23,616 nucleotides of DNA from a virus. The position numbers and the translations under genes were made by a program. A model generated the notes under the pieces. It had not been told where the DNA came from and made no database searches. It saw only the letters and a program-made list of their open reading frames with translations. Location of the stretch: the IMG/VR virus record IMGVR_UViG_3300009285_005222, positions 1 through 23,616 of that record, one strand, 5' to 3'. Shown here one piece after another: positions 1,654 through 22,682 of the stretch (positions are counted from its first letter, which is position 1; each line of letters opens with the position of its first letter).

Positions 1654-3255
1654 ATGGCAATTTTTGGTATACCAACTCGAAAGGACATCGCCGCGCTGAA
1701 AGACGAACTCGACGCGCTGAAAGCGGAGCGATATAAATATCAGCCCTGGCAACTGGAAACAGCCGAGGCGGAAAAGTGGAATCAGCCAGACCCAAGCGTT
1801 TATAAAAACCAGGCAGACCTATATCGTACCCTGTCCTGGGTGATGACGGCGGTTGACATCACTGCGTCCACCACCGCGCTTGTCCCATTTTCCGTAATGT
1901 CGGCAGTCGGGGAACAAGAGCCGAGGGAAATTGTCAATCATCCATTCGAGATGCTATTGCGTCACCCAAACGAACTTGATTCGCGTTTTGAATTCCTGTA
2001 CGCCACCGTCGCGTTGTGGAAATTGACAGGCAACGCGTATTGGTGGCTTAATCGCGCAAATGAAAACGCCGCGCCGACTGAGATGTGGGTCATCCCGTCG
2101 CACATGATTGAGCCTATCCCGGATGGGCGGATGTACCTGGACGGGTATGCCTACTCGCCAGGAAACGGAAATACTATCGCGCTGGAAAATTGGGAGATTG
2201 TAGACTTCCGCCGCTTCAATCCGTTCTCGCGTTTTCGCGGCCTATCCGCCATTGAATCGTTGGCGTTGGTCGCACAGGGCGACATTGGGATGCAGGAATA
2301 CAACACAAAACTATTCAAGGATAAGGGTGGGCAACTGTCCGGTATTCTCGCGTTCAAATCCATAATCGAAACAGATCAATGGAAAAAAATAAAACAGGAC
2401 AAGCGCGACGCGGCCAGCAAGCGCGAGGACATGATGCTAAACGGCGTGGGCGATGGTGGGGTAGAATGGCTACAAAACGCGTTCACGCAAAAAGATATGG
2501 AATTTTTGGAAGGCCGCAAATTTAACCGCACCGAGATTTACGGCGCGCTTGCGCCTGGCCTGGAATCCATGACCGACCCGTCTGCAACTGAGGCCAACGC
2601 TAATGCGGGCGAGCGCGTGTTCATGGGGAAAAACATTTACCCGATGCAGGTGATGATGGCGGAGAAAATCAGCAATTCTATTCTGCCCGCCTATGGTGAA
2701 AATCTGATTGCAGAATTCGAGGACGTGCGTATCTCTGACCGCCAATTGGAATTACAAGAACGCGCGGCAGACGAAAAGATTATGACGCTTAGGGAACTTC
2801 GCAAAACCTACAATCAACTTGAACCTCTTGGAGACGAACGCGACGATCTGCTTCCCGTCCAAATCACCGCGCAGACTGGGCAACCCGAATCACCCGCGCC
2901 GGTTATTGTGCAATCTAATCAGCCCGACGTGGACCAGACCCAGCCTGATACGATCCAGGGACAAGAGCCGCCCATAGACGCGGACAATCCCGACGCGGAT
3001 AACAACGCGCTGAAGGCCGACCTGGACAAGTGGAAACGCATCGCGCTCAAAAAGGTTGGCAAGGCTGTTCCATTTGAATCGTTTGAAATACCGGACGGGA
3101 TGCGGTTGGAGATTACCCGCGCCTTGTCTGCCTGCAAGTCCGAAGCGGATGTGCGCGGTGTGTTCGCCAAACACGCGGCGGCGAAACCGAAGGCCAGTGA
3201 TGTGCTGGAATTGGCGCGCGCGATGAACCGCGCGGTGGAAGAATTGGCGAAATGA
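1654..3255 (+). CDS. Portal protein, HK97 family
   Basis: The dodecameric ring at the capsid vertex, through which DNA is packaged and ejected. The 533-aa product has the hallmark HK97/lambda-type portal blocks: YRTLSWVMTAVDITAS near residues 52-67, then HPFEMLLRHPNELDSRFEF and the LTGNAYWWLNR segment, followed by the stem/wing region with GLSAIESL. The C-terminal part (about 405-533) is proline/aspartate-rich and then helical, probably lumenal or barrel-crown sequence. The start lies just downstream of a GAGG Shine-Dalgarno region at the end of terL. The stop overlaps the next ATG (ATGA), pointing to translational coupling with the morphogenesis gene. Confidence 0.93.
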   Translation: MAIFGIPTRKDIAALKDELDALKAERYKYQPWQLETAEAEKWNQPDPSVYKNQADLYRTLSWVMTAVDITASTTALVPFSVMSAVGEQEPREIVNHPFEMLLRHPNELDSRFEFLYATVALWKLTGNAYWWLNRANENAAPTEMWVIPSHMIEPIPDGRMYLDGYAYSPGNGNTIALENWEIVDFRRFNPFSRFRGLSAIESLALVAQGDIGMQEYNTKLFKDKGGQLSGILAFKSIIETDQWKKIKQDKRDAASKREDMMLNGVGDGGVEWLQNAFTQKDMEFLEGRKFNRTEIYGALAPGLESMTDPSATEANANAGERVFMGKNIYPMQVMMAEKISNSILPAYGENLIAEFEDVRISDRQLELQERAADEKIMTLRELRKTYNQLEPLGDERDDLLPVQITAQTGQPESPAPVIVQSNQPDVDQTQPDTIQGQEPPIDADNPDADNNALKADLDKWKRIALKKVGKAVPFESFEIPDGMRLEITRALSACKSEADVRGVFAKHAAAKPKASDVLELARAMNRAVEELAK

Positions 3256-3995
3256 AACGAGACACCCTCCTCCGCTTCATCCGCCGCGCCGCGCAGGCGG
3301 TCCCATCTGTTGTGGAGCATCTGAGCGCGGATGCAAAAAACATGCTGGCGCTAAAGGTTGGCGAGACGGGCGACTATAACGAATATCTGCAAAGCATAGA
3401 AGTTCTTGTCCAGAAACTTTATGATTACGGATTAAGCGAATCGGAGTTCAAGGAACAATTCAAGGCTTTGATAGTCGCGCAACTTATGGCGGCATACAAT
3501 AGCGCATGGTTTGACACAATGGACACGGACGAGATACCGGATTATCTGGACGAGGGCCTGCGGGAGGAGATAAAAAAACAATATGGGTATGTCAATAGGT
3601 ATTACGAAGACATAGTAAAAGCGCGCGGCCTGGCAATGGGAATTGCTTTGCTTTTGTCGCGTGCCAGTCTGTGGGCGGGCGCGGTTGTGGGGGCATACAG
3701 TAACGCGATCCTGCAAATCGCAACCGTGGAAGGTCCAAAACCAGATACGCCAATATTGGAAAATCTTGTTTGGCGTTTGGGCGCAACTGAACAGCACTGT
3801 AAAGAATGCTATTCGCTGAATGGGATAGTGGCGTCCGCGGGTGATTGGGGGAGAAGCGGATTCCGTCCGCAAATGCCGCCTAACGAAATGTTATCCTGTG
3901 GCGGCTGGCGTTGCGATTGCTCGCTTCTGCCATCTCTGGAAATAGCAGATGCCGACGCGGCAGAGCGATTGAATCAAATAGCGGCAGGTATCTAA
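3252..3995 (+). CDS. Phage head morphogenesis protein (Mu gpF / SPP1 gp7-like minor capsid protein)
   Basis: A minor capsid protein thought to sit with the portal and assist head assembly or DNA ejection. The 247-aa product is helical for about 150 residues. It ends in the recognisable family signature: W-R-L-G-A-T-E-Q-H-C-K-E-C-Y-S-L-N-G followed about 30 residues later by CGGWRCDC. The cysteines at 183, 186, 216, 221 and 223 look like a metal-binding cluster, typical of Mu F-like proteins. Coupling to the portal stop by a 4-nt ATGA overlap and the position right after portal support the call. A short hydrophobic stretch near 124-150 (GLAMGIALLLSRASLWAGAVV) may be a buried helix rather than a membrane segment. 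Confidence 0.8.
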   Translation: MKRDTLLRFIRRAAQAVPSVVEHLSADAKNMLALKVGETGDYNEYLQSIEVLVQKLYDYGLSESEFKEQFKALIVAQLMAAYNSAWFDTMDTDEIPDYLDEGLREEIKKQYGYVNRYYEDIVKARGLAMGIALLLSRASLWAGAVVGAYSNAILQIATVEGPKPDTPILENLVWRLGATEQHCKECYSLNGIVASAGDWGRSGFRPQMPPNEMLSCGGWRCDCSLLPSLEIADADAAERLNQIAAGI

Positions 3996-4528
3996 TGCAG
4001 ATTAGATTTAAAATTGAAGGCCTCGAAAACATCAGATCGTTTTTTCTGGATGTTTCAAGAACTGTCCCGCACGTTGTCATTAATGCCATTGCGGAACATT
4101 TGAAAAACGCGCTACAGCAAGACCGGGCGCAGTATAAATACATTAGCCGCGCATCTGCTTATGGTTCAACGGGCGCAACGTTTGAAAATGGGAATCCCGT
4201 CCCAGATGGATATTTCAGCGCAAAGCAATTCCGTTATGTCATGGCGAAAATTACAGACGGCACTATGACTCCCGGAACAGAAAACAGGACAGGGAAAAGC
4301 GCGGCAGGATGGGGGTATAATCCAATTGCAGAGGGGGAGAATACAGGATACATTACCAACCAAACCCCCGGCGCGTATTACACCACGAGCGACATTGGTC
4401 AAGCGCGCCAACCCGCAAAAGTCGGGTGGTTAAAAAACTCCATCGTCATTGCAAAAAACATTGTCGGCGCATTGTCGGCGGCAAAAGACGCGGTTGACAA
4501 ATTCATAATTTCATCGAAAGGAAAATAG
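3995..4528 (+). CDS. Putative neck / gp10-like structural protein
   Basis: A 177-aa protein. The ATG at 3995 was chosen because it overlaps the preceding stop (TAATG) and because the residues before it in the same frame are only antisense-like filler. It opens with a small beta-alpha unit (MQIRFKIEGLENIRSFF) followed by a helix, then a polar, glycine/tyrosine-rich region (YGSTGATFENGNPVPDGY) and a C-terminal helix. This layout resembles the HK97 gp10-like proteins of phage necks and minor tail proteins. However, the gene sits before the protease rather than after the connector, so its role is uncertain. It is the last gene before a 190-nt non-coding island. Confidence 0.45.
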   Translation: MQIRFKIEGLENIRSFFLDVSRTVPHVVINAIAEHLKNALQQDRAQYKYISRASAYGSTGATFENGNPVPDGYFSAKQFRYVMAKITDGTMTPGTENRTGKSAAGWGYNPIAEGENTGYITNQTPGAYYTTSDIGQARQPAKVGWLKNSIVIAKNIVGALSAAKDAVDKFIISSKGK

Positions 4529-4541
4529 CCTCTTGTTTTTG

Positions 4542-4550
4542 TGGTATACT
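4542..4550 (+). promoter_or_regulatory. Extended -10 promoter candidate
   Basis: TGGTATACT at 4542-4550 is a TGn-TATACT extended -10 element, one mismatch from the TATAAT consensus. No convincing -35 box lies 16-18 nt upstream, which is acceptable for extended -10 promoters. Transcription would begin near 4557 and read into the hairpins and terminator described below. It lies 14 nt after the preceding gene's stop, in an AT-rich patch. Confidence 0.4.
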
Positions 4551-4567
4551 ATTTTTGGTAGGAGATT

Positions 4568-4589
4568 GGCCAAACTAAAAAGTTTGGCC
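4568..4589 (+). other. Perfect 9-bp stem-loop
   Basis: GGCCAAACT (4568-4576) and AGTTTGGCC (4581-4589) are exact reverse complements separated by AAAA. Only three T residues follow before CC, so it is a poor terminator. It would form the first helix of a transcript starting near 4557. Confidence 0.6.
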
Positions 4590-4653
4590 TTTCCGCAAGG
4601 AATAATCGAGATAACCCTATTCAAACGCTGAGAGGCTCTTTGCGAGACCGGAA

Positions 4654-4722
4654 ATGGTAAACAAAGGCGACGCGTACAGGAAACTGTATGTGTCGCCTTT
4701 TTGTTTTGGAGCATGCAGATGA
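4654..4722 (+). CDS. Possible 22-codon leader peptide spanning the terminator
   Basis: A short open frame (MVNKGDAYRK...FGACR) starts at ATG 4654, runs through the whole terminator hairpin and ends at TGA 4720-4722. That stop overlaps the protease ATG (4719) as ATGA. The geometry would let a translating ribosome unfold the terminator and couple to the next gene. There is no good Shine-Dalgarno sequence before it (GACCGGAA only), and a 22-codon frame can arise by chance, so it is listed as a possibility only. Confidence 0.15.
   Translation: MVNKGDAYRKLYVSPFCFGACR
4663..4707 (+). terminator. Strong intrinsic terminator, GAAA-capped
   Basis: The arms 4663-4679 and 4684-4700 pair over 17 positions (15 Watson-Crick pairs, two G-U pairs) around a GAAA tetraloop (4680-4683). 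The 3' arm runs into TTTTTGTTTT. On the opposite strand the arm is followed by TTTGTTT, so it may work in both directions. It sits directly before the protease Shine-Dalgarno sequence, in the middle of what is otherwise a continuous late operon, so read-through or antitermination must occur unless a downstream promoter was missed. Confidence 0.8.
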
Positions 4723-5573
4723 AATTACCGCCCAAAATCAGAGAAGCAATCAAGGCCGTCACCGACGCGCCGAATTTGCGCGGGGACGAACAGCAAACCT
4801 GTCGCAACTGCAATTATTTTAAGTACATGCCTACCGATGGAAGTGATTTTGAGGGCGTCTGCAATCTTCACGAATTCACCGCGAAAGAAGTCTGGGTGTG
4901 CGATGATTGGGAATTAATCCCGCCCTCCGAACCCGCACAAGTGGAAAGCGCAGTCAAAGCCATCGGGGATTGGGAACTTGAAATTCGCGCCGTGCCATTT
5001 GGTGTAGACCGCGAAAAACAATCGTTTGACGCTGAAACTAATTATATGCTTGAGGAGTTTCAGACGCCCGTCGTTACATACCACCACGGAATCAATCCGG
5101 GCAGAAAAGGTATGCAGGTCAACCCAGTCATCATCGGAAAAACAATCAGCGTAGAAAAGCGGGCAGACGGGATTTGGATTCGTGTCCTACTTGACAAGAC
5201 TTTGGATTTTGCCCGCCGCGTATGGGAAGCGGCGAAAAAAGGACTGGCCGTTGCATCCTCCGATTCAATTGCACATTTGGCGCGGCTTGAGGTGAACGGA
5301 CGGGAAGAGTTTTACGATGGCGAAAAGCCAGGCAGAATTTCTGTCTGGCCGCTGGCGGGTGTGAGTTTGTGGGATTCGGGCAATGGAAATTTTCGTCCCG
5401 CCTCCCCGAACGCCATCGCCCTGCCTGCCATGAAAGCGATTTATCGGGAAGCGGGACTCCCCTTCCCGGACTTCAATCCCCATGACGCTTTACCAGAGGC
5501 CGCGCGAGCGGCGGGGAAGCGCACAAGGGAACAGGCACTTGCTTATTTAATCACCATTCCTAACGAGGAGTAA
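4719..5573 (+). CDS. Prohead maturation protease, HK97-like, with N-terminal four-cysteine domain
   Basis: Serine protease that trims scaffold sequence from the capsid protein during head maturation. The 284-aa product has a likely catalytic His in YHHG (H122/H123), a Ser in ASSDS (S180/S181) and the following I-S-V-W-P-L-A-G-V-S-L-W-D core strand typical of the HK97 family. Residues 28-64 form a separate small domain with CxxC (C28, C31), C48 and C61 in a CDDW context, suggesting a metal- or cluster-binding knuckle. The start at 4719 is preferred over the ATG at 4713 because GGAG (4708-4711) then lies 7 nt upstream. The major capsid gene follows after 7 nt, as expected. The role of the cysteine domain is unknown. 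Confidence 0.82.
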   Translation: MKLPPKIREAIKAVTDAPNLRGDEQQTCRNCNYFKYMPTDGSDFEGVCNLHEFTAKEVWVCDDWELIPPSEPAQVESAVKAIGDWELEIRAVPFGVDREKQSFDAETNYMLEEFQTPVVTYHHGINPGRKGMQVNPVIIGKTISVEKRADGIWIRVLLDKTLDFARRVWEAAKKGLAVASSDSIAHLARLEVNGREEFYDGEKPGRISVWPLAGVSLWDSGNGNFRPASPNAIALPAMKAIYREAGLPFPDFNPHDALPEAARAAGKRTREQALAYLITIPNEE

Positions 5574-5580
5574 AACAACC

Positions 5581-7197
5581 ATGAAAGATCAACTCAAGAA
5601 ACTCCGCGCGCAAATCAAAGTGTTGGCCATCAAAGCCGACCTGACCGACGCGGAGGACGCCGAACTGAAAAAGATGATGGCGCAAGCCGTCAAACTCGAA
5701 GGCCAGATCGAAGCCGCCGCGCTCGCCGCGAAGGGCGACGAAGCGGAACAGGCCGAAGCCGAAGCCGCGAAGAAACTGGAATTCGACGCCGCGCTCAAGG
5801 CTGAAAAGGTCAAGTGGGAAGCCGAGGCCGCGAAAGGACGCCGCCTGCCGATGGGCGACGGCGCGCCACATCAAACGCGATTTGCGGATACCCTGAAATA
5901 CGATTATCTGTCTCCCGGCGATCTTGGCCTGGCGATTCACCTCGCCAACGGACTCTCCCGCGCCAACACCGCAGGGATTGACGTGCGGCTTGGCCAGGGC
6001 GCGCTGAAAGCCCTCGCCATCAAATTGATCGAGGACACACGCGATTTTGGACATGCCGCCCTCGGACGAGGCTATTCGCTCAAGGCGATGTCCGAAGCGG
6101 GTCTGTCGCTAGACAAGGACGCGTATAAGGACGACGCGGCGATGAAGGCCGTTACCGATCCGATGTACACCGGCGGCACGACCGAAGGCGGAAACTGGGT
6201 GCATACCTCCTACAGCCGCGAGTTGTGGGCGGCATTGCGCGCCCCTACCGCCGTGCTTGGAAAACTTCCGGTGCAGATCATCCCGGACGGTTCTAAGTCC
6301 GCGACTATCCCATTGGAAGGCACTGATTTGACTTGGTACTCCGCCCCCGAAGCGACTGCGAGCGACACGACTTTGCTTGTCCCGTCCGCGACGGTTGGCG
6401 GGACGCAGATCACCACGCCCACCAACAAAGAAATTACCGTCGGCAAAATGGGTGCGCGCGGCCTGTACAGCGGCGAGTTGACCGAAGATTCCATTATCAA
6501 CTTCGTCCCGCAACTCCGCGAACAATTGATCACCGGCGGCAACGAGCAGTTGGAACACGCTGTAATCGATGGCGACACCGAAACGGCCGCGACCACCAAT
6601 ATCAACCACATCGGCGGCACGCCCACTTCGACGGGCATCAGCCGCGATCTTTTCCTGATTTTCGATGGATTCCGCAAATTGGCGCTCGTCACCAATACCG
6701 ACAACTCCGTTGCAGGCGGCGCGCTGACCGAGGACGATTACCTGGATACCATGTGGCTAATGGGTACGGCTGGACTGGCCGGTGCAGACCTCTCCAAGTG
6801 TGGTTTCATCATTGACCCGAACATCTACAAAAAGTCGCTGAAATTAGCGACTTTGAAAACCAAAGACGTTTGGACCCAAGCCACGATGGAAAGTGGCGTT
6901 CTCACGAAACTGTGGGGCTACGACATTTTCGCCTCGTGGTTCATGCACTACAAATCGACCGTCCGCAAGGCAAACAGCGCGGGCAAAGTGGATCAAACCA
7001 CCGTCGCGAACAACACCTACGGCTCGATTCTCGGCGTCCGTTGGGATCAGTGGCGGTTCGCGTACAAGCGCCAGATGACCATCGAGACGACCCGTATCGC
7101 CAACGCCGACTCCTACGAGATCGTTGCCTGGGCACGCGTCGGACTCGGCTACCGTGACACGGAAGCCTCTGCCATTTCCTATGGCATCACCGTCTAA
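5581..7197 (+). CDS. Major capsid protein, HK97 fold
   Basis: Forms the icosahedral shell. The 538-aa product begins with about 85 residues of charged, alanine-rich heptad-like helix, which fits an HK97-type delta/scaffolding domain to be removed by the protease encoded just upstream; the switch near residue 85-90 (AKGRRLP) is a plausible boundary but no cleavage site can be read with certainty. The rest has the layout of HK97-like capsid proteins: an E-loop-like segment with WVHTSYSREL and KLPVQIIPDGSKSATIPLEG, a long spine helix region (LREQLITGGNEQLEHAVIDGD), and an ending RIANADSYEIVAWARVGLGYRD. GAGGAG lies 9 nt before the ATG. Even, GC-rich codon use suggests strong expression. Confidence 0.92.
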   Translation: MKDQLKKLRAQIKVLAIKADLTDAEDAELKKMMAQAVKLEGQIEAAALAAKGDEAEQAEAEAAKKLEFDAALKAEKVKWEAEAAKGRRLPMGDGAPHQTRFADTLKYDYLSPGDLGLAIHLANGLSRANTAGIDVRLGQGALKALAIKLIEDTRDFGHAALGRGYSLKAMSEAGLSLDKDAYKDDAAMKAVTDPMYTGGTTEGGNWVHTSYSRELWAALRAPTAVLGKLPVQIIPDGSKSATIPLEGTDLTWYSAPEATASDTTLLVPSATVGGTQITTPTNKEITVGKMGARGLYSGELTEDSIINFVPQLREQLITGGNEQLEHAVIDGDTETAATTNINHIGGTPTSTGISRDLFLIFDGFRKLALVTNTDNSVAGGALTEDDYLDTMWLMGTAGLAGADLSKCGFIIDPNIYKKSLKLATLKTKDVWTQATMESGVLTKLWGYDIFASWFMHYKSTVRKANSAGKVDQTTVANNTYGSILGVRWDQWRFAYKRQMTIETTRIANADSYEIVAWARVGLGYRDTEASAISYGITV

Positions 7198-10123: not shown

Positions 10124-10883
10124 GTTTATCCGAGCGTATGTCAGCGGCTACGACCTCAGCGGAACGGCACGCGATATTGGCTCTGTCGGATATGCCTTCG
10201 ACAACGAACCGAACGCGGCTTTCTCGGATGGAGTGAAAAATATCGTCAACGGCCAGATGACAGTACAGGCCGACCCGCTAAACGCGTTCCTGTCTCCTGA
10301 AACGTCTCCGGCCATCGGCCTGCATGAATTGCTAAAATCCGGCGCTGGACTGCAAACCTACACCATCGCGTACGGGATTCTAGCCGCTCCCGCGCAAGGT
10401 GATTTTATCTTTTCGATGCCAATGGAGCAGGCCGCGTATCAGGCCGAGGGCGTGGCGGTGAACGTAGGCTGGGGGGGTCCAACGTCAACCAATACCCTGA
10501 TCAGTCTGGGCTACTCGTGTCCGTTCGGGCGACTGCTCCACCCCTTCGGCGTAGAGACCGCCGTCAATGCCGCTGTTGGCATAGACGATTACGGCGCAAG
10601 CCCTCCCGAACTCGGAGGGATACTGACCTACCACCTGTATTCGAGCATTGGTGGAAACATTACCATCAAAGTTCAGGAAGCGGACACCAACACAAATGGA
10701 AGTTTTACAGATATCACGGGCGCAACTAGTGGACTTATTGACGCTTCTTCTTCCCCCAAACATGGCGTCGTTGCGATTAGTGCGACCTATGCAGTGAAGC
10801 GATATTTACGCTGGCAGGTTGTTTTCAATGTGGGAACAAGCGCAACATTTTTGGCAGGATTCAATCGGAGGCTTTGGTCGTAA
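10104..10883 (+). CDS. Tail tube-like major tail protein
   Basis: Probable subunit of the tail tube. The 259-aa product begins R-A-Y-V-S-G-Y-D-L-S-G-T-A-R-D-I-G-S, a pattern I associate with a family of phage tail tube proteins that open with a 'GYDLSGYAR' strand. It is beta-rich throughout and ends KRYLRWQVVFNVGTSATFLAGF, a plausible natural C-terminus. The start at 10104 lies after AAGGTG and overlaps the previous gene by 20 nt. Its last 23 nt overlap the 3' end of the leftward HNH gene. The reading frame therefore survived the HNH insertion, with the final residues now encoded by shared sequence. The alternative is a decoration or other tail structural protein. Confidence 0.6.
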   Translation: MSRTNHRFIRAYVSGYDLSGTARDIGSVGYAFDNEPNAAFSDGVKNIVNGQMTVQADPLNAFLSPETSPAIGLHELLKSGAGLQTYTIAYGILAAPAQGDFIFSMPMEQAAYQAEGVAVNVGWGGPTSTNTLISLGYSCPFGRLLHPFGVETAVNAAVGIDDYGASPPELGGILTYHLYSSIGGNITIKVQEADTNTNGSFTDITGATSGLIDASSSPKHGVVAISATYAVKRYLRWQVVFNVGTSATFLAGFNRRLWS

Positions 10884-11493
10884 AGTATTCTATCCAATAC
10901 TCACGATTACCATTGGTTTTTACATGACAACTTTGACACAAAGTAATGCAATTTTCGGGAAAGGTATCGTTCTTTATGTAGTTAATGTGATGAACTGCCT
11001 TACCAAATTCGCCACAAATAGCGCAAGTGTAATTGTCTCGTTTGCGAATCTTTTCTTTGAATTGCTTGTTGAAGACAATTGGGTAAGGTTCGAAAGAAAG
11101 TCCGCCTCTCCAATTAGCGGCATTTTTGCCAATGGCACTTTTTATATAACAAGAACGAGAACAGTATTTTTGAGATTCTTTTCCACCGTGAGGCGGAGTA
11201 AATTCTTTTCCACAAAAGCGGCACAATCGCAAGGTTTTAATCTTTCTCGATATAGAATGGCATTTTATAGAACAATAACGTTGTGTAAGGAATCGGAAAA
11301 GTTTTACGGAATACGTTTTACCACATATCTCACACGTCTTGTTTTTTTCTCCTCCATTCCAGTTGCTAGATTTTTCTTTGACGAGATTTTCAGACCTCCA
11401 CTTTCCAGCGCAGGCAAAAGAACAGCACTTTATGTCTGGTCTCGTAAATTTCGCAGAAAACACCTTACCGCAAATGGCGCAAGTTTTTTTCAT
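10861..11493 (-). CDS. HNH endonuclease with N-terminal zinc-finger repeats (homing-type)
   Basis: A 210-aa DNA-cutting enzyme on the strand opposite to the whole late operon. Residues 5-8/24-28 begin the first of three CxxC...CxxxC zinc fingers (CAICGK, CEICGK, CRFCGK), followed by NW(N/R)GG spacers. The C-terminal HNH domain reads K-R-D-N-Y-T-C-A-I-C-G then VHHINY, then PENCITLCQSCHVKTNG: the His-His-Asn core plus structural cysteines. This is typical of free-standing homing endonucleases in phage genomes. The gene is visibly richer in A and T than its neighbours, a sign of separate origin. AAGGAT lies before its ATG (minus strand). Its 3' end overlaps the tail tube gene by 23 nt. No RuvC domain is present, so it is not IscB. 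Confidence 0.9.
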   Translation of the reverse strand: MKKTCAICGKVFSAKFTRPDIKCCSFACAGKWRSENLVKEKSSNWNGGEKNKTCEICGKTYSVKLFRFLTQRYCSIKCHSISRKIKTLRLCRFCGKEFTPPHGGKESQKYCSRSCYIKSAIGKNAANWRGGLSFEPYPIVFNKQFKEKIRKRDNYTCAICGEFGKAVHHINYIKNDTFPENCITLCQSCHVKTNGNREYWIEYFTTKASD

Positions 11494-12427: not shown

Positions 12428-12714
12428 CCGATGCCTACCTGCACGCGTGCGGTGGCGCGGACGAAGAAATGCAGGCAGGAAGAGGTCACTACTCGCCCGA
12501 AATAGATTTGCTTCGTAAGATCGATCGGTTTGGCCTGGAATCCATTACCGGCAGGCGGCAGTTTTATTTTGGAGAACTTCGCAGAATGATAGTTTCAGAA
12601 AATATTGTCACCGCCTACCAATCACGCGCCCAATCGAAAGATTGGGCTTCATGGGTTAATAAGAATCCGGTTATGGCGAATCTGTTGGCAGAGGCGGAGA
12701 GATTATGCCAATAA
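12104..12714 (+). CDS. Tail assembly chaperone, long -1 frameshift form (gpGT-like)
   Basis: After the slip at 12412-12418 translation continues in the -1 frame through RVLTDAYLHACGGADEEMQ... to the stop at 12712-12714, giving about 203 residues. The downstream part (about 98 aa) has no sensible start codon of its own: the frame opens only with a TTG inside the upstream gene and the ATG at 12431 is in a different phase. It is helical and charged and ends NLLAEAERLCQ, overlapping the tape measure start by 10 nt. This is the usual G/GT arrangement of siphophages. The ratio of forms depends on slippage frequency, which cannot be read from sequence. Confidence 0.75.
12412..12418 (+). promoter_or_regulatory. 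-1 ribosomal frameshift site CCCAAAC
   Basis: The heptamer fits X XXY YYZ with the zero-frame codons CCA AAC (12413-12418), so both tRNAs can re-pair on CCC AAA. The zero-frame stop is 7 nt further on. A weak bulged hairpin (ACC-GCA / TGC-GGT, 12437-12453) lies about 19 nt downstream and may or may not help. Confidence 0.75.
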
Positions 12715-15155
12715 CCGGCGCGGGCGTAAGCGGAATCAATGTCGAGATAACCGGACGGGCGGATGATTTAATCGCGGAGATTAATAAGACCAATAAGTCG
12801 CTCGATCAATTCAAGCAAAAAATCAAAGACGAAAAAGCCGCGCTTGCGGAGCAGGCGAAACAGGTCAAATCCGCCACCATGTCATGGACGGATTTTCGCT
12901 CCATGTACCAGACCGTGCTGGACGTGGTACGCGTGGGGCAACAGGTTTGGAACGCGTCCATTGATAAATTTATAGATTACACCGAACAAATCAGGAGGGT
13001 TCAGCGCGTAATGGGCGGGGATGTTGAAAACGCCTCCCGCCTGATTCAGGTTGCGGATGACGTTGGCGTAAGTTTTGAACAGATGGCATTAGCCATGCGA
13101 ATGGCTACAAAAAACGGGGTTGATGTAAGCGTAGACAGCCTCGCTAAACTCGCCGACCAGTTTATTGCTATTGAATCTCCGATAGACCGCGCAAAATTCG
13201 CGCAGAAGATATTCGGTAAAAATTGGGAGGCGATGATTCCGATTCTTGAAAAAAGCGGCGCGGGCGTAAAAGACCTTTACGATGGAATTGACGATGGGCT
13301 TATCGCGACAGAGGCGGGCGCGGCGGCGGTTGACCAATACAAAATATCCATAGACGAACTTGGAGAGGAGTATGACGCGTTTATAAACCAAGTCGCACCG
13401 CCATTTTTGGATTTCTTAAATCAGGCATTGATGGGATGGCGCATAATTTTAGAAATGGCTGACCAGATGGACAAAATAGATTTTAGCAAAGGGGAAGTAT
13501 TTAAGCAGATTGCTATAATCCATGACTCCATTAAGGATACGTTGGAGGCGGACGACGCGCTAAAGAAATTCATAAAAACAGAGGGCGGAATTCCAGGTGA
13601 GGTTGATCCGGCGACAGACGCGCTGGAAAAAGAAACCGAAGCCCTTGACCTGCTCAAAGACGCCGCGCAAATAACCTCCGATGCGCTTGAAGAAATATCA
13701 CAGCGTAACCAGGACATCATAAGCACGGTTGAAAAATTCGCCAGTCTAAACAAAAGCCACGCTGATGAAATGGCAGACGCGTATGATGAATTAAAAAATA
13801 AACAAGAAGACCTGGCGGAAGCGCAAAAAAAAGGTGACGTGAAAGGCATAAAGAGGGCTACCGAGGCAATCAATGAACAGCGCGAAACAATCAGCGGGCT
13901 GGTTGTGGATTACGTTAACGCGGGTGATGCGATTGTCTATGAGATGATTAAGGCAGAACTTGCAATCGGCGGTTTAACTGACGCGGAATATCTGCTCACG
14001 CTCGAAGCGGGCAAGGCATTTGGGGTTATCACCGACGCGGATATAGCAATGGCGCAAGCGGCCATGACAGAGAGGAACGCTTTTATTGACGCGGCAAAAG
14101 CATCTGGGCAATTAGGAAATGAGGTTGACGCGGCAACCAATAAAATTATTTTCGACATGATGCTCGCGAAACTCGCAGTAGACGGATTGACCGATGCGGA
14201 ATTTCAAGCCGCGTTGGAGGTTGGTAAAAACCTGGGCGTTATTTCAGACGCGGCCATACAGGTTGCCAAAGACCAGCAGGAGGCGGCCAACGAACTAATC
14301 GCAGGCACTGGATTGACGACGCCAGAGGAAACGACAGTAGACACCACAAACGCAACCGTTGACACGTCAGACACTGTCATCAACAGTGGCGCGACTACCG
14401 TAAGCGGAGATGGCGTAACCGTTGAAAGCGGAATGGTCACAATCAACGGAACCGCCGTTACACTAGATCAGGAACAGGTTACGCAGGCAATCCAGGATTC
14501 GATAGATAAACAGGATAGATTCACCCAATCGTTAGAGGTTACTTATTCTGTCATCAGAAACGAAGCAGTTGCCGTTGAAAATGTTAGTGTGTCCGTGCGA
14601 GATTTAACTTTTTGGCAGGACAGATTTACTCAATCGTCAGAGGTTACCTATTCCGTCATCAGAAACGAGGCGCTGGCCGTTGAAAATGTTAGTGTGTCCG
14701 TGCGAGATTTAACTTTTTGGCAGGACAGGTTTACTCAATCGTCAGAGGTTACCTATTCCGTCATCAGAAACGAGGCGCTGGCCGTTGACAACGTAGTTCT
14801 GTCAATTCAAAATGCAATAATGACACAAAACGCTTTAACCAATTCTATCTGGCAGTCCGTTTCCGCGCAAAACGCGCTCAATTCTGCTGTGTCCTCCGGC
14901 GGCACAATCGCGCCCTCCATGGATTCGGGCGGAGTCGGGCGCGCGGGACAGGAGTACATGATTGGCACGGGCGCGCAACCTGAACGATTCACGCCGCTCA
15001 CGAATGGCGTGTTTACCCCGAACGCTGGACGCGCCGGAAACAGTGGCAGTAGTCATAGCGTGACGGTCAATATCCATAATCCCACCGGACAGTCCTCCGA
15101 TAATAGCATTCGCAAGGAACTCAAAAAACTTTCCTACCTGGGGGTGCTGAGATGA
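12705..15155 (+). CDS. Tail tape measure protein
   Basis: The 816-aa protein sets tail length and helps channel DNA into the host. The N-terminus is a coiled coil (about 20-55, DLIAEINKTNKSLDQFKQKIKDE in pieces), followed by the MGG...SRLIQVADDVGVSFEQMALAMR block seen in tape measure proteins. A more hydrophobic helix lies near residues 230-250. Two 71-residue-spaced homologous segments (about 413-450 and 484-520, both GLTDAE..LE.GK..GVI.DA) precede a Thr/Val-rich stretch (about 545-595). Three near-identical 35-residue repeats follow at 603-698. It ends with a Gly/Arg/Thr-rich segment. A GGAGAG Shine-Dalgarno sequence and a 10-nt overlap with the chaperone fit. At roughly 0.15 nm per residue, the tail would be about 120 nm. 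Confidence 0.88.
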   Translation: MPITGAGVSGINVEITGRADDLIAEINKTNKSLDQFKQKIKDEKAALAEQAKQVKSATMSWTDFRSMYQTVLDVVRVGQQVWNASIDKFIDYTEQIRRVQRVMGGDVENASRLIQVADDVGVSFEQMALAMRMATKNGVDVSVDSLAKLADQFIAIESPIDRAKFAQKIFGKNWEAMIPILEKSGAGVKDLYDGIDDGLIATEAGAAAVDQYKISIDELGEEYDAFINQVAPPFLDFLNQALMGWRIILEMADQMDKIDFSKGEVFKQIAIIHDSIKDTLEADDALKKFIKTEGGIPGEVDPATDALEKETEALDLLKDAAQITSDALEEISQRNQDIISTVEKFASLNKSHADEMADAYDELKNKQEDLAEAQKKGDVKGIKRATEAINEQRETISGLVVDYVNAGDAIVYEMIKAELAIGGLTDAEYLLTLEAGKAFGVITDADIAMAQAAMTERNAFIDAAKASGQLGNEVDAATNKIIFDMMLAKLAVDGLTDAEFQAALEVGKNLGVISDAAIQVAKDQQEAANELIAGTGLTTPEETTVDTTNATVDTSDTVINSGATTVSGDGVTVESGMVTINGTAVTLDQEQVTQAIQDSIDKQDRFTQSLEVTYSVIRNEAVAVENVSVSVRDLTFWQDRFTQSSEVTYSVIRNEALAVENVSVSVRDLTFWQDRFTQSSEVTYSVIRNEALAVDNVVLSIQNAIMTQNALTNSIWQSVSAQNALNSAVSSGGTIAPSMDSGGVGRAGQEYMIGTGAQPERFTPLTNGVFTPNAGRAGNSGSSHSVTVNIHNPTGQSSDNSIRKELKKLSYLGVLR
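14511..14800 (+). repeat. 105-nt tandem repeats in the tape measure gene
   Basis: Units begin at 14511, 14616 and 14721. The first two are complete (105 nt, 35 aa: QDRFTQS..VTYSVIRNEA..) and the third is partial, diverging after about 75 nt. Units two and three are almost identical in DNA (only a few changes), so the duplication is recent. The reading frame is kept, so each copy adds 35 residues. Confidence 0.95.
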
Positions 15156-21557: not shown

Positions 21558-21673
21558 TCTGGTTTGTCGTCATTACCTGCCTGCTGTTTGTGTTCTGGGT
21601 CTGGTCATGGGTACGCGCGTCGGATGCGCCGTGTCCGAAGCCGCCGGAGATAAACGATGAAACTAGGAATTGA
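21554..21673 (+). CDS. Single-span membrane protein, holin or spanin candidate, 39 aa
   Basis: A 39-aa protein, shorter than usual annotation cut-offs. ATG 21554 overlaps the preceding TGA (ATGA) and AGAGG lies upstream. Residues 1-20 (MIWFVVITCLLFVFWVWSWV) are a very hydrophobic, Trp-rich membrane segment. The short tail (RASDAPCPKPPEINDETRN) is polar with a Cys and three Pro. It directly precedes the endolysin and overlaps its start by 17 nt, the classic place for a holin. It could equally be a small Rz-type or signal-less membrane accessory; a lipobox is not evident. Coding status is supported by tight overlaps on both sides. Confidence 0.5.
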   Translation: MIWFVVITCLLFVFWVWSWVRASDAPCPKPPEINDETRN

Positions 21674-22682
21674 CGTTTACCACATTGACCGATTAATTGA
21701 CTGGTCTTTGGCAAAGACTCGTTTTCCATTTGCGTTCATCAAGGCCAGTGAGTACCAAATTGACCCGCTGTTCAACGAGCAGTGGGTGGCGGCGAAAGGT
21801 CACGTTCTGCGCGGGGCGTACCATTTTTTCAGGCCATTGGTCAACGCGCAAAACGCCGCGAATATGTTTTGTGATATTCTTGGCGACGACCTGGGCGAAA
21901 TTGAACCAGCCATAGATCTGGAGGTATTCGATGGCGTGACCGACTTGTTGGAGCGCGCTAAGATTTTCGTAGATACGGTCTACGCGCGCACAGGAAAGAA
22001 GTGCATCATCTATACCAATAGCGATGTGCTTTTTAGCGCGGGTGCGGGCAAAAAAACAATCTGGCTGTTTTGGAAATATGGATGGCTGAGAGAACATCGT
22101 CTCTGGCTGGCTGCACCAACAAACGAAAGCAACACATTTGAGTATGCGATAAAAGTTTTCAATGGAGAGGCGGTTTTCAACTGGCCGTCCCCGCCACCGC
22201 CGTTTGACAAAATCCATTTTTTACAATGGACGTGGTACGGTGTGCCGGAACTTGTGCCAGGATACTATGTTGGCGAATATCACAAATTACAAGTTGATTG
22301 GAATTTTGCGGCAGATGGCGAACTTGGCGAACTGCCGCCCGTTGACCCACCCCCACAAGGAGAACCAATGAAAGGTACAGTAATTACAGCAAGTTTGAAA
22401 GTCCGCACTGCGCCCGTAGACGGCGCAGTCATCGGCGGTCTGTCGCTGAATGATTTGGTGGAGGCCGACCGCAAGGAAAATGGATGGTGGCATTTGACTA
22501 TGATACGCGGCGTTGCAACCGTTGGCGAAAATTGGTCATACGAAGGCGCAACACAAGGATACATCCGAACCGACTCGGACGTACCGCCAACTGGATTGCC
22601 CATCATCCACATCCATCAATTGTACAGTGCTGATGGCTACCCCGACAAAATCATTGATGAGGAATGGATACCCAATGCTTGA
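21657..22682 (+). CDS. Endolysin: GH25 muramidase with SH3b domain
   Basis: Cell-wall lytic enzyme that hydrolyses the MurNAc-GlcNAc beta-1,4 bond. The 341-aa product has the GH25 signature residues: G-I-D-V-Y-H (D6), F-I-K-A-S-E (E32), G-A-Y-H-F-F-R-P (residues 53-60) and the catalytic A-I-D-L-E (D87, E89). A proline-rich linker (LPPVDPPPQGEP, about 226-237) leads to an SH3b domain (about 238-310, VITASLKVRTAPVDGAVIG...GWWHLT) that probably binds peptidoglycan. The tail HIHQLYSADGYPDKII... (about 314-341) is unassigned. No signal peptide, so it needs a holin. ATG 21657 overlaps the membrane protein gene. A strong internal start at 22368 may give the SH3b domain alone. Confidence 0.93.
   Translation: MKLGIDVYHIDRLIDWSLAKTRFPFAFIKASEYQIDPLFNEQWVAAKGHVLRGAYHFFRPLVNAQNAANMFCDILGDDLGEIEPAIDLEVFDGVTDLLERAKIFVDTVYARTGKKCIIYTNSDVLFSAGAGKKTIWLFWKYGWLREHRLWLAAPTNESNTFEYAIKVFNGEAVFNWPSPPPPFDKIHFLQWTWYGVPELVPGYYVGEYHKLQVDWNFAADGELGELPPVDPPPQGEPMKGTVITASLKVRTAPVDGAVIGGLSLNDLVEADRKENGWWHLTMIRGVATVGENWSYEGATQGYIRTDSDVPPTGLPIIHIHQLYSADGYPDKIIDEEWIPNA
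22357..22362 (+). promoter_or_regulatory. Internal Shine-Dalgarno sequence within endolysin
   Basis: AAGGAG, an exact Shine-Dalgarno core, ends 5 nt before the in-frame ATG at 22368. Such a signal is unusual inside a coding region and lies exactly at the linker/SH3b junction. Confidence 0.6.
22368..22682 (+). CDS. Putative internally started SH3b cell-wall-binding product of the endolysin
   Basis: Same frame as the endolysin, starting at codon 238. The product would be 104 aa: the SH3b domain (M-K-G-T-V-I-T-A-S-L-K-V-R-T-A-P...) plus the C-terminal tail, with no catalytic residues. Endolysins from several Gram-positive phages (for example Enterococcus F170/08 Lys170 and clostridial CD27L/CTP1L) make a separate binding domain this way, and it multimerises with full-length enzyme. 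Here the evidence is the AAGGAG-N5-ATG signal at the domain border. No expression evidence exists in this window. Confidence 0.4.
   Translation: MKGTVITASLKVRTAPVDGAVIGGLSLNDLVEADRKENGWWHLTMIRGVATVGENWSYEGATQGYIRTDSDVPPTGLPIIHIHQLYSADGYPDKIIDEEWIPNA

Follow-up and report, generated by a model that had tools for sequence, protein, structure and literature searches.

A recurrent promoter-RNA-terminator unit that probably controls when the capsid genes of uncultured phages are switched on

In dozens of uncultured phages a compact element recurs, made up of a promoter, an RNA, a terminator and the start codon of the capsid genes, and as the same set-up is found in so many related viruses, this unit probably controls when those genes are switched on. 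At least two conserved RNA types that are absent from Rfam occupy the same slot within it, and its layout resembles that of known terminator-gated phage leaders. The reading that we prefer, and to which we would give an even chance, is that of a cis-acting leader of the protease-like/capsid operon, gated by its terminator. To our knowledge, it is not known how most uncultured tailed phages time the expression of their capsids, and the models of this timing rest on few cultured phages; with this unit, late-gene control in these phages, possibly of Chloroflexota, becomes testable on a fragment of 200 bp, and the model of one of the RNA types offers a means of finding more copies.

The unit and its head-gene neighbourhood

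The window, that is, the whole stretch of 23,616 bases analysed here, comprises positions 1-23,616 of the IMG/VR record IMGVR_UViG_3300009285_005222. Among its first genes are those of the terminase large subunit (380-1645) and the portal (1654-3255), followed by two genes without a profile match (3252-3995 and 3995-4528), the second of which lies directly upstream of the unit. The unit fills the interval between 4528 and 4719, and the first gene past its terminator (4719-5573, plus strand) is an open reading frame for which relatives were found, with no match in Pfam, PHROGs or NCBIfam, so that its product can be called only protease-like, on the basis of its location ahead of the major head protein gene and of the motifs YHHG and VASSDS. 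The major head protein gene itself (5581-7197, plus strand) has a weak match to PHROG 10 (E 6e-4) and one to TIGR01554 below the cut-off, and its protein found no match among annotated phages. The two neighbours of the unit, originally described as neck/morphogenesis and protease genes, are both without a profile match.

The same neighbourhood varies among the relatives: the protease-like and capsid domains, which are two genes in the window, are fused as one open reading frame in L003 (2869-5145), L005 (137-2431) and L006 (234-2765), and the protease gene differs in its N-terminal domain from one relative to another. Further along the window, a glycosyl hydrolase family 25 lysozyme, probably the endolysin, is encoded at 21657-22682 (Pfam E 3.5e-16), and amid the plus-strand structural genes there is a minus-strand frame of 210 aa (10861-11493) in which CxxC pairs are repeated and the C-terminus is HNH-like, accompanied by a promoter-like site (11642-11614, minus strand), which looks like a free-standing HNH endonuclease.

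The unit, all of it on the plus strand, begins with an extended -10 promoter element, TGGTATACT, at 4542-4550, which has the same place in the relatives. It is regarded as an extended -10 only, because a -35 element is absent 17 nt upstream, and a generic sigma-70 promoter scan of the window did not list it. Transcription is predicted to start at 4557, 7 nt past the last base of the -10, where an A is conserved in the relatives. Hairpin A follows at 4568-4589, with a perfect 9-bp stem (GGCCAAACT-AAAA-AGTTTGGCC) closed by an AAAA loop and present in both the minimum-energy and the centroid folds. The intrinsic terminator (4663-4707) consists of a stem at 4663-4700 with 17 contiguous pairs, two of them G-U, a GAAA loop, and then the U-rich TTTGTTTT; when both strands are compared, it is the strongest terminator in the window. 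Immediately afterwards come a ribosome site, GGAG (4708-4711), and, with a spacing of 7 nt, the ATG of the protease-like gene (4719-4721), a second in-frame ATG being found at 4713.

Between hairpin A and the terminator the structure is less definite. A small hairpin with a GCAA loop (TTCC-GCAA-GGAA, 4591-4602) can be read from the sequence and would be an alternative structure, since the minimum-energy fold, from which it is absent, pairs GCAAGGA at 4595-4601 with TCTTTGC at 4637-4643 in a possible long-range helix, itself in a region within chance; a second possible hairpin, ACCG-GAAA-TGGT (4647-4658), appears in the predicted fold and, taken alone, is also within chance. The whole unit (152 nt) folds with -61.2 kcal/mol and a z of -6.6, none of 200 shuffles being as good; without the terminator z is only -2.6, and the middle segment (4590-4660), folded alone, gives -0.5. 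The fold signal stems mainly from hairpin A and the terminator, and in the sequence of the window neither of the small tetraloop helices exceeds chance. The original prediction of a promoter-RNA-terminator unit therefore holds, at the level of sequence, for the extended -10, the hairpin at 4568-4589, the 17-bp terminator and the fold as a whole, and its tetraloop helices are no more than possible.

A small coding gene in this place was rejected: the plus-strand frames that start within the unit are of 32 aa and 22 aa only, as the initial view of a region with no substantial coding frame had it, and the relatives share no coding sequence there; on the minus strand a frame of 100 aa spans across the unit. 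Nor was the RNA recognised by Rfam 15, where, in line with the initial view, which had recognised no RNA family, neither the unit nor the RNAs of the relatives matched any family at the gathering score, permissive thresholds adding only weak matches below threshold. BLASTN of the unit against annotated phages gave one chance match of 24 nt.

Recurrence, position and direction in the relatives

Relatives were collected from IMG/VR with the protease-like and capsid proteins as queries. A stretch of 27 bases from the RNA of the window is found in one other contig only, identical over 2,800 nt; in the other relatives the sequence at the same position differs and the layout is the same. Among 98 distinct upstream regions, 64 had a computed terminator-like hairpin, from which 12, situated within genes or distant from the gene start, were removed by hand, so that a strong terminator stands before the same gene in 52 of the 98 (the terminators of L032 and L112, which escaped the filter, are additional to these), a count of loci that share ancestry and are not independent trials, although their DNA is very divergent. 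For 48 of the 52 terminators, the median distance from the end of the stem to the in-frame start codon is 20 nt. As to direction, the strong terminators point the same way as the capsid genes at 48 loci and the opposite way at 2, and the extended -10 elements at 27 and 1, respectively. Of the relatives in the tree, about 44% are without the unit.

The promoter recurs together with the terminator. Of 49 units, 25 have, 45-210 nt upstream of the terminator, a TG followed by at least five of the six bases of TATAAT, as against 1.8% of 2,797 control windows, and 14 have a perfect extended -10 match in the expected interval, as against 0.1%; the consensus from the alignment of the relatives is TGnTATAAT. 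A start motif, AAYYRAATA, located at about +1 to +9, is shared by 25 of 52 leaders, compared with 3% of control windows, and is absent from the window's own unit. In a piecewise scan of whole records for strong terminators, no terminator but that next to the capsid genes had an extended -10 upstream (at least 5/6) in the window, in G301 (L205) and in G300 (L214), the copy of G316 (L208) having a weaker -10 and that of G313 (L211) none by the same threshold. That place, direction and spacing are fixed speaks for a role in cis, although compact packing alone could put any small RNA gene this near to the next start codon.

As regards the hosts, 298 genomes were drawn from the class to which an Anaerolineaceae assembly with a capsid relative of its own belongs, and 20 of them contain relatives of the capsid protein, which suggests hosts within Chloroflexota. 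A tyrosine integrase was found in only 3 of 25 records.

A slot for different RNA types

The promoter and the terminator are the most constant parts of the unit, and the RNA between them is of 35-167 nt and of differing types; to judge from these sequences, the interval is a variable slot for interchangeable folded RNAs. The RNA that we call type I was found in 15 loci and consists of a stem P1, an internal loop in which CAGGAUA lies opposite GCGAAAAGG, and a stem P2, the loop being conserved. In ten seeds, aligned with MAFFT and unfitted, but with the structure drawn from the same sequences, both sides had changed in 12 of 14 pairs. The covariance model defined here from this leader, R1, recovered five non-seed copies (L022, L097, L167, L176 and L177), all in the same slot, among which L167, L176 and L177 had been obtained through the loop-motif pattern and L022 is closely related to the seed L020. 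In the alignment of all 15 copies, which is fitted to R1, there are 46 doubly changed cells, where shuffles give 17 +/- 4, and covariation scores 0.51, compared with 0.18 shuffled and at most 0.18 in slid controls; L009, L010 and L048, folded without constraints, give the same stems. In L167, L176 and L177, type I also stands before head genes that belong to another, clearly distinct branch of capsids.

The second type is the GACCAGUAAAAUC hairpin, GACC[AC]G[GT]AAAAUC with a varying flanking stem, found at L066:2883, L103:2397, L107:2774 and L112:2978, and also in L225, L230, L232, L236 and L237, where the head genes that follow it are very divergent. A third, longer leader of about 190 nt is common to L005 and L016, with 68% identity, and its terminator too lies before the protease-like start codon. 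Since the slot holds different RNA types, a joint treatment of all the leaders with MAFFT and RNAalifold yielded no consensus.

The window's own RNA fits neither type I nor the second type: P1, the CAGGAUA/GCGAAAAGG loop and P2 are not found in it, though its clade mates L009 and L010 match, and R1 gives no match to it up to E = 10. The proposal to build a covariance model from related loci thus bore fruit in the slot, with strong compensatory change in 15 relatives, and did not extend to the RNA from which it had started. A search of 24 whole records with R1 gave significant copies in three of them, one per record and always in the slot. The R1 match at 13196 of the window (E 0.019), within the long frame 12705-15155, was taken as chance; relaxed pattern matches in L172-L175 and L178-L182 look like coincidences in coding sequence, and the sole match among Anaerolineae genomes, L184, lies opposite an open frame of 1017 codons. 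L171 was set aside, being non-coding yet not before capsid genes: at 128-159 of this 42-kb contig a type-I-like motif is followed by a terminator, ahead of a small cysteine-containing frame.

The covariation bears on another explanation, according to which no RNA is regulated, and an internal promoter with a partly leaky terminator or a 5′ hairpin would set the level or stability of the capsid mRNA and insulate it from upstream transcription. The constancy of promoter and terminator, the variation in length and type of what lies between, and a middle fold within chance in the window would suit it; however, the covariation and conserved loop of type I, as well as a second conserved hairpin type, would be superfluous under it, and we consider it decidedly unlikely.

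On a tree of the protease, the three states (type I, other unit, none) require 28 changes, compared with 39 when shuffled, that is, below the shuffled value and yet many. There the window, L009 and L010 fall into one supported group, and the latter two have type I. L097 and L103 have capsid DNA that is about 83% identical and RNA types that are different; their alignment (L097 from 2769, L103 from 2482) begins at the terminator, with none through the RNA. This indicates that recombination can join RNA and capsid genes at the border between them, and that the RNA type does not go with the capsid proteins.

These findings weigh against a packaging or capsid-bound structural RNA. The packaging RNA of phi29 is a phage RNA in a head and packaging context, and the location among head genes would agree with something similar; but here the RNA type does not track the capsid genes, as L097 and L103 illustrate, type I precedes divergent capsid families, and the unit is missing in nearly half of the relatives, so that this possibility is hardly credible.

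The chief rival of the leader reading is an independent gene for a trans-acting small RNA, or "moron", packed by chance between two head genes, with late transcription passing through it by general antitermination. This explanation, possible but somewhat doubtful in our estimation, is retained because the RNA is complete in itself, with its own promoter and its own terminator, and exchangeable; there is, moreover, one copy per genome, and the conserved internal loop of type I could bind a partner. On the other hand, the slot is always the same, the direction is 48 to 2 and the same start codon follows at about 20 nt, even before very divergent capsid genes, and neither RNA type was found in any other context, the doubtful L171 apart. 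The original prediction had allowed for either a moron or a leader/antiterminator, and it is the leader that recurrence and a fixed position and direction before the capsid genes favour.

A terminator-gated leader and its counterparts in known phages

A strong terminator in the sense direction within a head operon would lower capsid expression unless it were overridden. From the arrangement we infer promoter activity, termination, a control of read-through and its timing, in the following manner: (i) a host-type extended -10 promoter would give rise to an RNA of about 145-150 nt; (ii) this short RNA would end by default at the intrinsic terminator that adjoins the capsid ribosome site; (iii) at the right time there would be read-through, either because the folded RNA acts on the polymerase or because a phage or host factor recognises the leader; (iv) and finally, the capsid genes would be transcribed both from the promoter of the unit and from upstream. 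The alternative pairing of a classical attenuator or riboswitch is not supported, as pairing of the leader with its own terminator arm in preference to the arms of other units, tested by permutation, gave p 0.057 over all units and 0.63 within type I.

Phages make use of antitermination both by protein, as with the lambda-type Q (PMC6606751), and by RNA, as with the put of HK022 (PMC9378689). In the late control of lambda and phage 21, a PR' promoter, a tR' terminator and antitermination by Q are combined (PMC6606751), and the unit is similar, at the level of sequence, in its sigma-70-type promoter, its short terminated RNA and the late genes that lie behind the terminator. It differs in that the RNA itself is structured, with covariation in relatives, whereas Q needs no such RNA, and in that the unit is placed within the head operon and immediately precedes the capsid genes. 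A lambda-type -10-like pause element is not conserved in the initial transcribed region, NANNAT being scattered and in few of 27 units, and the spacer between -35 and -10, the position of the Q-binding element in lambda, holds no sequence shared by 36 promoters, a comparison in which a phage-specific site would not show. A boxA like that of lambda nut (GCTCTT[TA]) occurs in 1 of 52 leaders, that of the window, and no boxA is conserved.

The put RNA, of about 70 nt and with two stem-loops, acts at early promoters of HK022 (PMC9378689), and the unit is like it in that the nascent phage transcript is structured close to its start and has a terminator further on. In place of two adjacent stem-loops, type I has one nested arrangement of P1, internal loop and P2 before the capsid genes, and the RNA of the window has another predicted fold. 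By analogy, then, the unit could work like PR'-tR' or like put, although tested features that define each of them are missing. It is conceivable, if unlikely, that the slot contains exchangeable put-like RNAs for processive antitermination, which would make the polymerase resistant to terminators for the capsid genes and would have been diversified by the exchange of cassettes.

Finally, the Pas sRNAs of E. coli prophages are phage-encoded small RNAs that act in trans (PMC13192938), and the RNA considered here is likewise a small one encoded on a phage element; in the present case its position, its orientation and its distance to the capsid start are all fixed.
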